A DNA stretch of 5,564 nucleotides from Elusimicrobia bacterium HGW-Elusimicrobia-2. GTDB taxonomy: Bacteria; CG03. This document shows, piece after piece, positions 415-5,410 of the stretch. Both the position numbers and the translations under genes were made by a program. Location of the stretch: assembly GCA_002841685.1 (NCBI GenBank), contig PHAM01000087.1, positions 1 through 5,564 of the forward strand, in the 5' to 3' direction. Below the pieces are notes generated by a model. That model made no database searches, was not told the DNA's origin, and saw nothing but the letters and a program-made list of their open reading frames with translations. How positions within the stretch are numbered: position 1 is the first letter of the stretch; each line of letters begins with the position of its first letter.

Positions 415-1716
415 TTAAACGCCCGCGCCAAGGTCGGTGGGAGCTCTGCCGAGTTTCCTGAGATCCGAAACAGCTTCCCGCACCTGCACGTCAACAGATA
501 CGTTTTCGTGTATCCTTTCGGGATATATTTGATAGTTCTTTCTGTGCTCATCGGGAGTGAGGTTGAGCATCATGGAATTTGCCCCCGCCATAAAACCTCT
601 GTTTCGCCCTTCCACAGGGGCCAGAGTTTCCAGAGCCGTTGTTGAAACGATTTTTCCCAAGGGGTCCGCGATTCTCAGCAGAGAGATTGTTTTTAATATT
701 TTGTCGAGAGAAGGGGGCTTTGTTCCCGCAAAAGGCGTTTGAGGATGAGGAATAAAAGGCCCGAAGGTGTACATTTCAGGAGCGAGTTTTACCGCCTCAA
801 GAATATCCTTCACTGTATCTTCGTCACTCTGTCCGGGGAATCCGACAAGGCCCCCGGTCAGGACCAGAAAACCTAACTTTTTTGCCTCTTCAATTTCTTC
901 CAGGCGACGGCTCAGGGAATCCCCGGGATGGATTTTTGAATAAATAGTTTCGTTTGAAGTTTCAAAGCGTATGAGCACGCCGCGGGCTCCAGCGTCATAG
1001 AATTTTTTCAATCCGGCTTTGCCAACTTCCCCGACGCTTATAAAGAGCAGGACAGCGTTTTCACCGCGTATTTTTTTAATGAGTTTTGCAATGCGTCCGG
1101 CGTCCCATTCGGGGTCTTCTCCGCTTTGAAGAACCAGCGCCTTGAAACCGTAAATATCAATAGAGCGTTTAACGGTGTCAAGGATTTCTTCCTCGGTCAT
1201 TCTATATCGGGGCAGTGCGATATTGTCTTTTCGTATGCCGCAGTACAGGCAGTTGTTCGCGCAGTTGTTTGAGAATTCAATGATACCATGCACGCAGCAG
1301 GCGTTTTTGTGGTATTTCTGGCGTATGAAATTCGCCACCTTGTATAAGTATTCTTTATCTCCCTCGTCTTCCAGTGAGAAAAGATGCAGATATTCCTCAA
1401 ATTTTATTTTTCTTCCTTCCAGCGCCGCATCCAGTATCGTCCGGGTTTTTTTTGACGCTTCTCCTTTTCCTTCAAGTTTTGAAAGGCGAAGGTCCACTTT
1501 CCGGAGCTTAAAAAATGTTTCTTTCCAGAATTCCAGTATTTCCCGGGCTTCTTTTTCGGGAACGACATTTATGACAAAACCGCCCTGCGCATATATATAG
1601 TCACCGGCCTTTACTTTTACAAAATCGTTGTGAGCGTAGCGTTTCTCGCCGAAGTAGTCTATTATGACTTTCTTGTCCTGGAAGCCTGTTATTTTACCGG
1701 GGATGGCGTAGCACAT
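415..1716 (-). CDS. HypC-HydE fusion: HypC-like domain plus HydE-like radical-SAM enzyme
   Basis: The 433-residue protein has two parts. Residues 1-75 are a full HypC/HupF-type chaperone domain: it starts MCYAIPGKI, with Cys2 as in HypC, and contains the GDYIYAQGGF strand. HypC carries Fe(CO)(CN)2 for [NiFe]-hydrogenase using Cys2. Residues 90-433 resemble HydE, with a radical-SAM cluster motif CX3CX2C (Cys152, Cys156, Cys159 in SNNCANNCLYCGIRKDN), LQSGEDP at 196-202, VGFPGQ at 291-296 and GPFIPHPQTP at 319-328. The second-cluster Cys motif seen near the C terminus of some HydE proteins is absent. The usual HypC His in 'HxGF' is Gln44 here. HydE acts on the HydG product in H-cluster assembly; the substrate here is unknown. 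The start is 12 nt after the hydG-like stop, with GAAGAG as ribosome-binding site, so it is the last gene of the apparent operon. The domain calls are strong; the function is inference. Confidence 0.9.
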   Translation of the reverse strand: MCYAIPGKITGFQDKKVIIDYFGEKRYAHNDFVKVKAGDYIYAQGGFVINVVPEKEAREILEFWKETFFKLRKVDLRLSKLEGKGEASKKTRTILDAALEGRKIKFEEYLHLFSLEDEGDKEYLYKVANFIRQKYHKNACCVHGIIEFSNNCANNCLYCGIRKDNIALPRYRMTEEEILDTVKRSIDIYGFKALVLQSGEDPEWDAGRIAKLIKKIRGENAVLLFISVGEVGKAGLKKFYDAGARGVLIRFETSNETIYSKIHPGDSLSRRLEEIEEAKKLGFLVLTGGLVGFPGQSDEDTVKDILEAVKLAPEMYTFGPFIPHPQTPFAGTKPPSLDKILKTISLLRIADPLGKIVSTTALETLAPVEGRNRGFMAGANSMMLNLTPDEHRKNYQIYPERIHENVSVDVQVREAVSDLRKLGRAPTDLGAGV

Positions 1717-1728
1717 AATATCCGCTCT

Positions 1729-3183
1729 TCAAAAGTAGATGTCGCGTTCTCCGTTTTTGATTTTTGTGTAGTCGTCCATAAATTTTTTAAATATCTTCGG
1801 TTTTTGCTTTTTTATTTCATCAATTTCTTTTTTTATTATTTTTTCACCTTTTTTCTTTGTTTCAGGAGAAGCGTAATCGTCCAGCCATTCCCTGAATGTA
1901 AGAACGGCGTTCATTTTACAGAACCATTTTTCCTCGCCTTTTTTCAGGAGGTTCATTATACATTTGCCGGTCCTGCCGCAGCGGTATCCGGCGGTGCAGA
2001 AAGAAGTTATATAGCCCATGTCGGCGAATTCGCCTATGACTTCATCAAGGCTTCTTGTGTCGCCGAGCATAAACTGCTGCCGTTCCGCTTCCTGTTCGCT
2101 GTATCGGTCGCTGTATGCGCCTATTCCTATTTTGGTTGAAGCGTCGGTCTGTGTTACTCCCAGGCTTAGCGCTTCACGGCGTATTTTAGCCTTTTCCCTC
2201 GCCGTTATTATCATTCCCGTGTAGGGCACAGAAATGCGTATTATGGTTATAAGTTTTTTAAAATCTTCGTCTGAAACCTTATATGTACTTTTTTTAGATA
2301 GAGTGGTGCCGGACGCCGGTTCAAGCCGGGGAAATGAAATTGTGTGAGGGCCTATCCCGAAATGTTTTTCCAGGTCGATAGTATGATATAAAAGGCCCAT
2401 CACTTCAAAACGCCAGTCATATAATCCGAAAAGTGCGCCTATGGCCACATCGTCTATTCCGGCTTTCTGCGCCCTGTGAAGGGCATAGAGACGCCACCTG
2501 TAATCAGATTTTGATCCGGTCGGATGCATTTTTGAGTAAGTGTCATGATGATAAGTTTCCTGAAAAACCTGATATGTTCCGATACCGGTTTTTTTAAGCT
2601 GTTTTAACTCTTTTACCGTCATAGGCGCGGCATTTACATTGACCCTGCGGATCTCTCCGTGGCGGACTTTTACGCTGTATATGGTGTTAATAGTGTCGGT
2701 CATATAATCTATCCCTGAGGATGGATGTTCTCCGTAGACAACAATTATGCGTTTGTGCCCTGAAGAGACAAGGGCTTTTGCCTCATTTTCAGTTTCTTTA
2801 AGAGATAATTTACGGCGTTTTTCAGATTTATTGCTTTTTCTGAAAGCGCAGTATAGACAGTCGTTTTCACAAAGATTGCTCAGGTAAAGCGGAGCGAAAG
2901 TGACGATCCTGTTGTCATAGACTTTTTTCTTTATCGCCAGGGCCGCTTTCTGCATCTCAAGCAGAAGTTTTTTGTCAGTCACATTTAAAAGAGCCGCTGT
3001 TTCATCGGGCTCAAGTCTTTTTATCTTGAGAGCTTTGGCGATGATCTGCCTTATGCGCTTTTTAGACGGTGACTTATTTTTTTTAATGAGCTCCCATATA
3101 TGCGTGTCATTAATGAAATCGTTACCGTTCTTATTGAGATATTGAGAATACTCCTGTGGTACGATACGGGAGATATTTTTCAT
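1729..3183 (-). CDS. HydG-like radical-SAM enzyme with altered C-terminal cluster motif
   Basis: From the ATG at 3183 the protein has 484 residues, close to the usual HydG length. HydG cleaves tyrosine to p-cresol and makes CO and cyanide on an Fe-S cluster for [FeFe]-hydrogenase. The radical-SAM motif is Cys105, Cys109, Cys112 (LSNLCENDCLYCAFRKSN). Family-typical stretches follow: VNVNAAP, FQETYH, KMHPTG, KSDYRWR, GLYDWRFEV and GIGPHTISFPRLEPA. His267 sits where HydG binds the extra 'dangler' iron. The C-terminal CX2CX22C spacing is kept, but the middle Cys is Gly: Cys396, Gly399, Cys422 (CTAGYRCGRTGKC), with extra Cys401 and Cys408. An upstream ATG at 3261 would add 26 residues unlike HydG and overlap the previous gene by 64 nt. 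I prefer 3183, although its ribosome-binding site is weak. It could be a paralogue with different chemistry rather than true HydG. Confidence 0.88.
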   Translation of the reverse strand: MKNISRIVPQEYSQYLNKNGNDFINDTHIWELIKKNKSPSKKRIRQIIAKALKIKRLEPDETAALLNVTDKKLLLEMQKAALAIKKKVYDNRIVTFAPLYLSNLCENDCLYCAFRKSNKSEKRRKLSLKETENEAKALVSSGHKRIIVVYGEHPSSGIDYMTDTINTIYSVKVRHGEIRRVNVNAAPMTVKELKQLKKTGIGTYQVFQETYHHDTYSKMHPTGSKSDYRWRLYALHRAQKAGIDDVAIGALFGLYDWRFEVMGLLYHTIDLEKHFGIGPHTISFPRLEPASGTTLSKKSTYKVSDEDFKKLITIIRISVPYTGMIITAREKAKIRREALSLGVTQTDASTKIGIGAYSDRYSEQEAERQQFMLGDTRSLDEVIGEFADMGYITSFCTAGYRCGRTGKCIMNLLKKGEEKWFCKMNAVLTFREWLDDYASPETKKKGEKIIKKEIDEIKKQKPKIFKKFMDDYTKIKNGERDIYF

Positions 3184-3197
3184 CAGGGCGGCGGGGT

Positions 3198-3494
3198 TTA
3201 ATTTTCCAATGCGCTTTTGAAAACTTTTCCGGGATTGTCCGCCAGCAGCAGGATTCCCCATACCGCAAGGGCAAGGATGATTACAGAAAGTCCGAGCAAT
3301 GCGGCATCCGGAGTCATTTCAAAAAACGCTTCCCCCTCTGTCAGATATGCCATGACTGAGTCGATGAACCACATGATTGCCGCGCCCCAGAATATCAGGC
3401 TTAACGTGCCCAGCTTATATTTGTCGTCGGGGGCGTTTACATACCATAGCGCAGTTGTGATCACCGCCGCCAGTGCGGTCATAAGCAGCCACAT
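3198..3494 (-). CDS. Small three-segment membrane protein, unknown function
   Basis: The 98-residue protein has three hydrophobic stretches, roughly residues 1-20, 28-51 and 64-85, joined by short acidic loops (APDDKYK and TEGEAFFEMTPDA). It ends in a short basic tail. I do not recognise the family. There are no Cys or His residues for metal binding. Its ATG overlaps the stop of the 128-aa gene by one base (TAATG), and a very strong AGGGAGG ribosome-binding site lies 7 nt upstream. Translational coupling and joint stoichiometry with the 128-aa protein are therefore likely, and the two may form one inner-membrane unit. The hydG-like start lies 14 nt downstream of its stop. Confidence 0.82.
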   Translation of the reverse strand: MWLLMTALAAVITTALWYVNAPDDKYKLGTLSLIFWGAAIMWFIDSVMAYLTEGEAFFEMTPDAALLGLSVIILALAVWGILLLADNPGKVFKSALEN

Positions 3495-3880
3495 TATTCA
3501 GCCTCCCTGACAATGGCCATCTTTGCTCCGTTAATGGCTCTGTTTACCAGCTCAACGGCCGTAACCATTATTGCCCAGATGCTTGTTACGGTTACGGACA
3601 TAGCTGTACCCACTGTAGCCATCTCGTGAAGCATTGGAGCCACTTCCGAAGGATTTTTCAGCGCTGTCAAAAAAGGCGGCCAGGGCGTGACTTCCCCGTG
3701 CCATATATGTTCCAGCGCCAGCAGTATAACCCCGCCCCATAACATCGTGTTCAGCCAGCCCAATCTCCGGCTCCAGCTCAATCCGGCATTTTCAGTCTTT
3801 TTACCCTCTCTCTTCTTAACAACCTTCTGCGCAACGCTTGTTACGATGGCCTCTGCCATAGGTACAATAAAACACGCCAT
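3494..3880 (-). CDS. Small membrane protein with conserved-looking N terminus, unknown function
   Basis: The 128-residue protein begins MACFIVPMAEAIVTSVAQKVV, a hydrophobic or amphipathic stretch with Cys3. A very basic segment follows (KKREGKK, about 22-28). Clear transmembrane segments are about residues 41-60 (ending ALEHIWHGE) and 88-112. His60-region and Met/His residues (EHIWH at 57-61, MLHEM at 83-87) near the membrane edges could contact a metal, but this is a guess. There is no signal-peptidase site and no known domain that I recognise. The start is firmly set by AGGAGGT 8 nt before the ATG. It is coupled to the 98-aa gene by TAATG. It follows the porin gene after an 81-nt gap, so it may be the first inner-membrane component of the nickel-linked operon. 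Confidence 0.83.
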   Translation of the reverse strand: MACFIVPMAEAIVTSVAQKVVKKREGKKTENAGLSWSRRLGWLNTMLWGGVILLALEHIWHGEVTPWPPFLTALKNPSEVAPMLHEMATVGTAMSVTVTSIWAIMVTAVELVNRAINGAKMAIVREAE

Positions 3881-3899
3881 ACTCTTACCTCCTGTCTAT

Positions 3900-3928
3900 C
3901 CCCGTCATCCTGAGGCGAGGGGGAGTTT
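3900..3928. repeat. Possible half copy of a palindromic repeat between porin and membrane genes
   Basis: The segment CCGTCATCCTGAGGCGAGG resembles one arm of the GTCAT-CCTGAG-GCGA type of dispersed palindrome and is related in layout to the element at 117-178. The second arm is missing. On the minus strand a 5-bp stem (TCCCC/GGGGA) with a 15-16-nt loop is possible, and it lies just upstream of the 128-aa gene's ribosome-binding site. It has no T-tract, so it is not a classical terminator. It could affect mRNA stability or reduce expression of the distal genes. Confidence 0.35.
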
Positions 3929-3961
3929 CCAATACGTCAACATACTAAATTCTTTCATTTA

Positions 3962-4924
3962 TTAAAAATTTATTACAGTCTGCAGCGCAACCGAATTATT
4001 GTTAACACTCGGCGTTTCACTGTTTACCTGGTATTCGCCGCGTATTGAAATGTTTTCCGCGACATCACAGCCGATAGCGAGTGTTGATCTTTTAATTTTA
4101 TCACCGCCATCCGGTTTCCATTGGCCGTAGCGCGCAGTCCCATAAACATTTTTGTAAATGCCGGCGAGCGCCTGCATATAAAATCCGCTGTGTTTGTTTT
4201 CTCCTGTTCCCGACAGGTCTTCTTTACCTGCAATGTATTCTCCTTTTAAGTTGAACGATTTTTTCCCGCACCTGACATCCGCTCCTGTTCTCTGCCACAG
4301 TTTTTCGCTGTCGTCGTCAAAATATGGCCCCCTTGCGAAAGAAAAACCGAATTCAAGCTGTTTTGCCGGAGAGACGCCTATTCTGCCGCCGTAAGTTTTC
4401 GAATTATTATTGTCCGCGGTCTGATTAACGGGAGCGCTGCTTATATCAACGCCCATGCCGTTAACCGCGAAAAGATTGAAATTCAGCATAGAAGTTTTGC
4501 CGTGGAAATTTATTCCGGTATCGCTCCATCCTCCGTCCATCATGAGTTCGGTTGTAATGGGAGGAGTTACGATTTTTCTGTCGCAGGCCGCAAATGTGTG
4601 ACAGTCAATTCCGAAAGGTACATCAATGAGTCCTGCCTGTATCCCGAGTTTTTCTTTTACAATACTGAAATCAACAAGTGTCTGGCCGAGAGAGGCCTCT
4701 CCGTCTTCTACGACAACGGCACCCTCAAATGAGGCCTGCTCACTGATTTCGGTTTCAAAATCAATTTCAAATGTTCCCATTTGAAATGAACTGTTTTCGC
4801 TCTGCGTATCGCGATAAAGAATGTCGGCAAAACCGCTGATCGCGCCTTCGCCCTGCGCGGCGGTTATAAATACCACTGTCGTTGCCGAGAATAGAACCAT
4901 CGTTTTTAAAATCAGTTTTTTCAT
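3962..4924 (-). CDS. Porin-like outer-membrane beta-barrel protein
   Basis: From the ATG at 4924 the protein has 320 residues. It starts with a signal peptide (MKKLILKTMVLFSATTVVFITAAQG, cleavage near residue 25). The rest alternates polar and hydrophobic residues in beta-strand style and ends TVINF, with the terminal Phe typical of BAM-assembled barrels. It looks like a general or substrate-specific porin; the exact family is not recognised. Cys108-His109 and Cys114 (DCHTFAACDRK) form an unusual Cys/His-rich spot for a porin and might bind metal. The ATG at 4933 is less likely, because AAAGG directly abuts it, while the same AAGG is about 9 nt before the ATG at 4924. A NikR-type operator and promoter lie just upstream, so a role in passage of nickel or a nickel chelate across the outer membrane is a reasonable inference. 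Confidence 0.85.
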   Translation of the reverse strand: MKKLILKTMVLFSATTVVFITAAQGEGAISGFADILYRDTQSENSSFQMGTFEIDFETEISEQASFEGAVVVEDGEASLGQTLVDFSIVKEKLGIQAGLIDVPFGIDCHTFAACDRKIVTPPITTELMMDGGWSDTGINFHGKTSMLNFNLFAVNGMGVDISSAPVNQTADNNNSKTYGGRIGVSPAKQLEFGFSFARGPYFDDDSEKLWQRTGADVRCGKKSFNLKGEYIAGKEDLSGTGENKHSGFYMQALAGIYKNVYGTARYGQWKPDGGDKIKRSTLAIGCDVAENISIRGEYQVNSETPSVNNNSVALQTVINF

Positions 4925-4940
4925 AATTTCCATCCTTTAT

Positions 4941-4971
4941 AAGTGTTACGATTTCAATAATAGTAACACTT
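4941..4971. promoter_or_regulatory. Probable NikR operator upstream of the porin operon
   Basis: A perfect 9-bp inverted repeat, AAGTGTTAC (4941-4949) and GTAACACTT (4963-4971), is separated by 13 bp. The half-site centres are 22 bp apart, exactly as in the E. coli NikR site GTATGA-N16-TCATAC. As I recall, GTGTTAC/GTAACAC half-sites have been proposed for NikR in other anaerobes. The site lies next to nikR and overlaps the promoter region of the porin gene. Nickel-loaded NikR bound here would block RNA polymerase, so expression should rise when nickel is scarce. Confidence 0.83.
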
Positions 4972-4987
4972 TAAAAAAGTTTGTCAA
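4957..4987 (-). promoter_or_regulatory. Promoter of the porin/maturase operon
   Basis: On the minus strand a consensus TTGACA (plus coordinates 4982-4987) is followed by two possible -10 boxes: TATTAT (4957-4962, spacing 19, 5/6 match) or TACTAT (4960-4965, spacing 16, 4/6). One operator half-site falls between the -35 and -10 boxes and the other just downstream, which fits repression. Non-ideal spacing is common in regulated promoters. Confidence 0.6.
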
Positions 4988-4996
4988 GAAGAAAAT

Positions 4997-5410
4997 TCAG
5001 ATTCCTTTGCCGGTTGTAGCGGCATTCAGGGAGGAGTGCTTGACGCCTTTTACGGATTTTAGTTTATCCGCAAGACTTTTTATTTTTTGAGGCGCTCCTT
5101 TTACAATTATTATCTCAAAGCAGTTATTATGGTCCAGGTGGATGTGCTGTGAGGAAATAATGAGCCCGTGTGTGTCATGCTGTATATCGATAAGTTTGCT
5201 GATGAGATCTTTTTTGTGATGGTCATAGACAAGAGTTATCGCGGCCACGACCGTTTTGCCCTTGTCCCATTCGCTTTTGACAAGCTCTTTCCTTATAAGG
5301 TCCGCAATCGCTTTTGAGCGGGCCGGACAATTCTGTTTTTTTATGTGGAGGTCAAACTTTGACAGAAGTTCTTTTTCAAGCGAAACGCCGAATCTTGTAA
5401 GCTTATCCAT
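4997..5410 (-). CDS. nikR: NikR nickel-responsive transcriptional regulator
   Basis: The 137-residue protein is full length for NikR. Residues 1-45 are a ribbon-helix-helix DNA-binding domain: LTRFGVSLEKELLSKFD, then ARSKAIADLIRKEL. The C-terminal ACT-like metal-binding domain carries the expected nickel ligands His78 (IQHDTHG), His89 and His91 (SQHIHLDH) and Cys97 (NNCFEI), equivalent to E. coli His76, His87, His89 and Cys95. NikR tetramers bind nickel in the cytoplasm and then repress nickel-uptake genes. Its likely target is the inverted repeat directly downstream, before the porin gene. No matching operator is seen in front of nikR itself, so autoregulation is not evident. Cys28 within the DNA-binding domain is an unremarkable extra Cys. 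The start is the only good ATG; no clear ribosome-binding site precedes it. Confidence 0.95.
   Translation of the reverse strand: MDKLTRFGVSLEKELLSKFDLHIKKQNCPARSKAIADLIRKELVKSEWDKGKTVVAAITLVYDHHKKDLISKLIDIQHDTHGLIISSQHIHLDHNNCFEIIIVKGAPQKIKSLADKLKSVKGVKHSSLNAATTGKGI

Follow-up and report, generated by a model that had tools for sequence, protein, structure and literature searches.

A HypC-HydE fusion encoded together with a HydG-type enzyme: a probable alternative route of [NiFe]-hydrogenase maturation

The 5,564-base contig PHAM01000087.1 of Elusimicrobia bacterium HGW-Elusimicrobia-2 (genome of 1.78 Mb, 96% complete), analysed here over its entire length and called the window below, carries on its minus strand nikR, the genes of a porin-like protein and two small membrane proteins, a gene of a HydG-type enzyme and a gene in which a HypC domain is fused to HydE. 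Judging from the sequences and their gene context, the HydG-type enzyme and the HypC-HydE fusion very probably serve an alternative maturation of [NiFe]-hydrogenase, in which they replace HypD, HypE and HypF. According to a 2025 review the anaerobic [NiFe] cofactor is made by six Hyp proteins and the origin of its CO ligand is the most pressing open question; HydG and radical S-adenosylmethionine (SAM) enzymes are not mentioned there (PMC12134894). No description of the fusion or the pathway was found in open-licence papers, with subscription papers and preprints outside the scope of the search, and the gene set appears to be a previously undescribed route to the Fe-CO-CN unit of [NiFe]-hydrogenases, using [FeFe] enzymes in place of Hyp proteins. 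The first-pass annotation of the window, made from sequence alone, had suggested that the genes make up a nickel-linked cofactor system not described before, in which proteins of the HydE/HydG type would have a new role. This suggestion is supported, and the gene set it listed was confirmed and recurs in relatives.

Results

Residues 1–64 of the fusion are recognized by the HypC model PF01455 (48.5 bits, cut-off 28.5), but reach only 42.6 bits with TIGR00074, the curated model of stand-alone HypC with a cut-off of 48, and therefore represent a HypC-type domain rather than a stand-alone HypC. The HydE part passes TIGR03956 (263.3 bits, cut-off 254.6). AlphaFold2 produced one confident model for both domains (mean predicted local distance difference test score 94, predicted template-modelling score 0.93), in which the HydE domain superimposes on 3iiz with Z 48.5 and a root-mean-square deviation (rmsd) of 1.5 over 336 residues; the structure-search lists were filled by this domain, the HypC half being barely tested structurally. 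Cys2 of HypC, the carrier of the iron unit, is kept in 81/81 fusions, and the position of His51, which E. coli HypC and HybG need for good contact with HypD (PMC9002611), is occupied by glutamine, again in 81/81. Such a substitution is what these sequences might be expected to have if HypD were gone. The radical SAM cysteines are also kept, and N138, C140, C141 and H143 (NxCCxH) are invariant in all 81 fusions, this motif occurring in none of the four standard HydEs compared, a small set with T. maritima HydE among them. In the alignment H143 takes the place of arginine, C140 and C141 that of V and H/Y, just before the SAM-cluster loop.

The second enzyme is closely similar to T. italicus HydG (4wcx, 5e-143). 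Its start at 3261 is probably too far upstream and the true start further in, since there is a 64-base overlap with the preceding gene and the HydGs of relatives have 488–496 residues. The radical SAM motif CX3CX2C (Cys131/135/138 in the window) is kept in 47/47 homologues. The auxiliary-cluster motif CX2CX22C has its standard form in 35/47 homologues, all from other lineages, and is not present in the window HydG, where the motif is altered (Cys422/428/434/448) and the lineage has CTAGYRCGRTGKC...WFC; because of this the protein is named HydG-type, in the sense of working like HydG. CTAGYRC replaces CTACYR in 12 of the 47 fusion-linked HydGs, which form one clade including that of the window. 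In a HydG tree five [FeFe]-type HydGs group together and the 47 fusion-linked ones lie across one branch. A separate origin and the direction of change are left unsettled by this tree, the midpoint root drawing the [FeFe] group among the fusion-linked HydGs. In the viral contigs searched no relative of the window HydG was found.

Neither HydF nor a hydrogenase gene is present within the window, as had been remarked at first pass. For hydrogenase this holds because the contig ends there, and the remark fails for the genome, where a membrane-bound hydrogenase (MBH)-like group-4 operon was found on a separate contig (C55, locus L072). It comprises the large and small subunits, Mrp-type subunits, a maturation protease (PF01750) and HypA (PF01155). 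Its large subunit is similar to a chain of membrane-bound hydrogenase (6cfw_L, 2e-84), has all four metal-binding cysteines in CGICSCSH and DPCYCC and carries a C-terminal tail of 33 residues. HypD, HypE and HypF did not exceed their cut-offs anywhere in the window genome.

The fusion was found in five of the six other genomes of the window's family. At L018 (G001) the order is porin, nikM/N/Q/O-type genes, hydG and fusion, followed by hydrogenase genes for iron-sulfur, flavin, NuoH-like and [NiFe] small subunits; at L015 (G002) nikR, both small membrane proteins, hydG and fusion run into hydrogenase genes like those of G001, and at L017 (G004) hydG and fusion come after nikR, porin, the gene of a DUF4198 protein and genes of nikM/Q/O type. 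The phylum members with HypD/E/F (G007, G008, G010, G014) are all without the fusion: G007 and G010 gave no fusion match, and the HydE-like matches of G008 and G014 lack the HypC part. Taken within the phylum only, the tendency of fusion and HypD to avoid each other falls short of significance (Fisher p=0.08).

Scanning of genome contigs gave 113 loci with relatives of the query, and the best 80 of them were kept. These 80 come from Omnitrophota, Margulisiibacteriota, Saganbacteria/WOR-1 and Elusimicrobia, other bins being labelled Riflebacteria, Brevinematales, Planctomycetales, Lentisphaerae, WOR-3, Patescibacteria and Micrarchaeota, where binning errors are possible. The fusion typically stands directly behind the [NiFe] large subunit, protease and HypA; the commonest order is iron-sulfur beta, flavin gamma, small subunit, large subunit, protease, HypA of 80 residues, fusion, sometimes a Rex-type regulator, and hydG. 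The hydrogenase operon at the Saganbacteria locus L106, with beta, gamma, small and large subunits, protease and short HypA, is of group 3b. A fusion was called at 75 loci from outside the family of the window. A [NiFe] subunit gene lies near it in 45 of them, a gene for a protease, HypA, an electron-transfer subunit or a [NiFe] subunit in 54, and hypD, hypE or hypF in none. The four cysteines are present in all large subunits that could be read at full length from the fusion operons. For co-occurrence 50 genomes were taken, picked as carriers of the fusion and related to each other. The [NiFe] large-subunit family (PF00374) is present in 50/50, the four cysteines not being checked for every match, and HypD in 0/50. 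A joined query of HypF, HypE, HydA and HydF, for which G014 was the positive control, gave a full or convincing HypE/HypF match in 0/50, HydA in 14/50, HydF in 12/50 and neither HydA nor HydF in 35/50. The exclusion of fusion and HypD over the 50 carriers and four named controls has p=3e-8, which is merely indicative since the carriers were selected and are related. Thus gene order, which the first-pass annotation had proposed to check, is conserved, and the co-occurrence it proposed to look for, with [NiFe]-hydrogenase and nickel transporters, was found.

Several features of these loci were registered in passing. The HypA of about 80 residues directly before the fusion (L106, 9756–9998, and similar at many loci) misses its zinc-binding half (PF01155 positions 1–68 of 112), and the gene of the Rex-type redox regulator between fusion and hydG (L115, 11338–11970, and similar) recurs at many Omnitrophota loci. 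At L146, L149 and L155 hydG and fusion are preceded by a gene whose product has about 1,100 residues and in L155 is a molybdopterin oxidoreductase. At L138, in the bin labelled Micrarchaeota, the two genes come after that of a membrane pyrophosphatase.

The distribution bears directly on a conventional explanation, by which the client is an [FeFe]-hydrogenase, matured as usual, and the HypC part of the fusion an odd accessory. Elsewhere HydE and HydG are familiar as maturases of [FeFe] enzymes, 14 of the 50 carriers have an [FeFe]-hydrogenase, and at some loci one is nearby. However, neither [FeFe]-hydrogenase nor HydF exceeds its cut-off in the window genome (G000) or in G001–G005, 35 of the 50 other carriers likewise have neither, and L103, where [FeFe]-hydrogenase is present, has a separate standard HydE beside the fusion. 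For the window's family this explanation is already refuted, unless both genes sit in gaps of six genomes, and in general we consider it very improbable. The first-pass question whether carriers lack [FeFe]-hydrogenase and HydF is thus answered in the affirmative for the window genome, its five relatives and 35 of the 50 carriers. Somewhat less improbable, though still poorly credible, is the assumption that HydG and the fusion supply CO only, with cyanide coming from unrecognised substitutes of HypE and HypF. It would fit the lack of a known anaerobic CO source for [NiFe] enzymes (PMC12134894), CO being made by HydG, but cyanide is a HydG product as well, and HypE and HypF were not registered over cut-off in six relatives nor convincingly in the 50 carriers.

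The same data argue against a model of the first-pass annotation, by which an Fe-CO/CN cofactor is made for a nickel-free enzyme at nickel shortage. The position of the genes beside nikR and behind a NikR box speaks in its favour, but the hydrogenases of the partner operons are nickel enzymes that keep the four metal-binding cysteines, a [NiFe] large subunit accompanies the fusion in every carrier, and the HmdB model scores 63.8 bits with the window proteins, far under its cut-off of 320.9, which leaves this model with an extremely low probability.

In the window a perfect NikR box, identical to the consensus GTGTTAC-N13/14-GTAACAC published for delta-proteobacteria (PMC545781), lies between nikR and the porin gene (Table 1), where 0.06 matches at ≤3 mismatches are expected by chance. 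In two relatives a box with one mismatch has the same position. The two features of a NikR regulon, NikR and its box, are thus both present in the window. The porin label is putative and based on appearance and position alone; family-model searches gave no family match for this protein and no match over cut-off for the membrane proteins M128 and M98. At L017 and L018 nikMNQO-type genes stand where the membrane proteins would be, so that M128 and M98 fill the position of a nickel transporter. Since the box precedes them and such transporter genes have the same position in two relatives, the porin and membrane proteins can be explained more simply by nickel uptake than by transport of a small molecule. 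The latter was the other first-pass model, in which the enzymes make a metal-binding molecule that moves through the membrane proteins and porin. The presence of these proteins in the gene set agrees with it, but they were not found at loci of other lineages, where fusion and hydG adjoin hydrogenase genes, the HypC domain is a protein-delivery module, and together with HypA, protease and hydrogenase operons it indicates cofactor delivery into protein. The probability of this model is close to nil. As the box and uptake-type genes are placed ahead of the maturases, synthesis of the iron unit and nickel supply are probably induced jointly in the window lineage at nickel shortage.

Table 1. Features of the window, with positions counted from its first base
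Feature	Positions	Strand	Evidence
HypC-HydE fusion	415–1716	-	HypC domain residues 1–67; HydE domain about 90–429
HydG-type tyrosine lyase	1729–3261	-	TIGR03955 481.7 bits, cut-off 312
M98, small membrane protein, possibly nickel uptake	3198–3494	-	DUF2178 weakly, 20.0 bits against cut-off 22.8; three hydrophobic stretches
M128, small membrane protein, possibly nickel uptake	3494–3880	-	no family match; orthologues in two relatives
Porin-like outer-membrane protein, probable nickel entry	3962–4933	-	no family match; orthologues beside nikR in relatives; function inferred
NikR operator GTGTTAC-N13-GTAACAC, upstream of porin	4943–4969		0 mismatches
nikR, nickel-responsive repressor	4997–5410	-	PF08753 E=7e-32; NF003381 170 bits, cut-off 105

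M128 and M98 (3198–3880), standing in the place of a nickel ATP-binding cassette transporter, are possibly a novel type of nickel uptake. The window also carries, at 212–370 on the plus strand, the C-terminal end of a YhcG/DUF1016-type nuclease gene, left as a remnant (PF06250, profile positions 117–157); Rfam search of the window gave no match.

Discussion

It is known that HydG obtains CO and cyanide by splitting tyrosine, and that the [Fe(Cys)(CO)2(CN)] which it builds is handed straight to HydE (PMC11736057). Two tyrosines are consumed per unit (PMC6212873), and therefore two CO and two cyanides are formed. HypC-type chaperones supply the large subunit with Fe(CN)2CO (PMC8692609; PMC9002611). 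Since in the fusion HydE is joined to HypC, transfer from HydG to HydE, HypC and the large subunit is possible without HypD, HypE and HypF. From the genes present, their linkage in operons, the mutual exclusion of fusion and HypD and the residue patterns, all observed directly, we infer the chemistry, delivery and regulation of such a route. HydG would split tyrosine and assemble an Fe(CO)x(CN)y unit, which would pass to the HydE domain with its new Cys-Cys-X-His ahead of the SAM-cluster loop. Remodelling by this domain would yield the mononuclear unit of the [NiFe] site rather than lead to the dimerisation typical of the H-cluster. The HypC part of the fusion may then take up the unit on its Cys2 and insert it into the large subunit, still in apo form, with nickel coming from HypA and the C-terminus trimmed by the protease, as usual.

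Some observations weigh against this route. The product of known HydG is Fe(CO)2(CN) and the [NiFe] site contains Fe(CN)2CO, so that ligand exchange is required. Giving up one of the two CO and gaining a second cyanide would be the unproven step of the pathway. The second auxiliary-cluster cysteine of the window-lineage HydG is moved by three residues. By neighbourhood count, HydG not being searched genome-wide, hydG is beside the fusion in only 43 of the 75 loci. Three phylum members fit neither scheme: G006 (L077) has a four-cysteine group-4 large subunit, with fusion and HypD/E/F not found; G011 (L063) has such a subunit together with HydEFG, with HypD/E/F and fusion likewise not found; and G015 has a homologue of the large subunit in which the second motif could not be recovered. 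These three genomes may be incomplete. In G005 (89% complete), which carries the fusion, no [NiFe] large subunit was found. The absences in general rest on numbers, because the carriers are nearly all metagenome-assembled genomes.

In a bolder version the pathway would have evolved independently, with CO and cyanide both from tyrosine and with another ligand set, for example Fe(CO)2(CN), on the finished iron of some enzymes. Such a version seems unlikely. A changed ligand set found no positive support, since in the comparison made the large-subunit residues before DPC and around APRG did not separate group-4 enzymes of the fusion type from those of the HypD type.

The proposed maturation by HydG and the fusion shares with the HypCDEF pathway the HypC module with Cys2, HypA, the maturation protease and the [NiFe] large subunit as client, but HypD/E/F are not found, glutamine replaces the HypD-contact histidine and HypC forms one protein with a radical SAM enzyme. 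With the HydEFG pathway it has in common HydG and HydE homologues over family cut-offs and the HydE fold (rmsd 1.5), whereas the window genome has no HydF or [FeFe] client, the HydE of the fusion bears HypC and the new Cys-Cys-X-His, and the HydG cysteines of the window lineage are shifted. HypX, which synthesizes CO for [NiFe]-hydrogenase under oxygen, is likewise a dedicated CO source for the [NiFe] cofactor, but it converts formyl-tetrahydrofolate to CO and works with HypCD, unlike the tyrosine lyase described here, which is accompanied by no HypD. The NikR regulons of delta-proteobacteria (PMC545781) have the same box consensus as the window and the nikMNQO-type transporter seen in its relatives, and differ in that here maturases also stand behind the box.

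If the proposal is true, there would be a second route to the [NiFe] cofactor, derived from [FeFe] maturases and with tyrosine as the likely source of both CO and cyanide, and two otherwise separate systems of hydrogenase maturation would be joined. A two-gene maturation kit would then be available for biotechnology, and the existence of [NiFe]-hydrogenases without hypDEF genes in many candidate-phylum bacteria would be explained.

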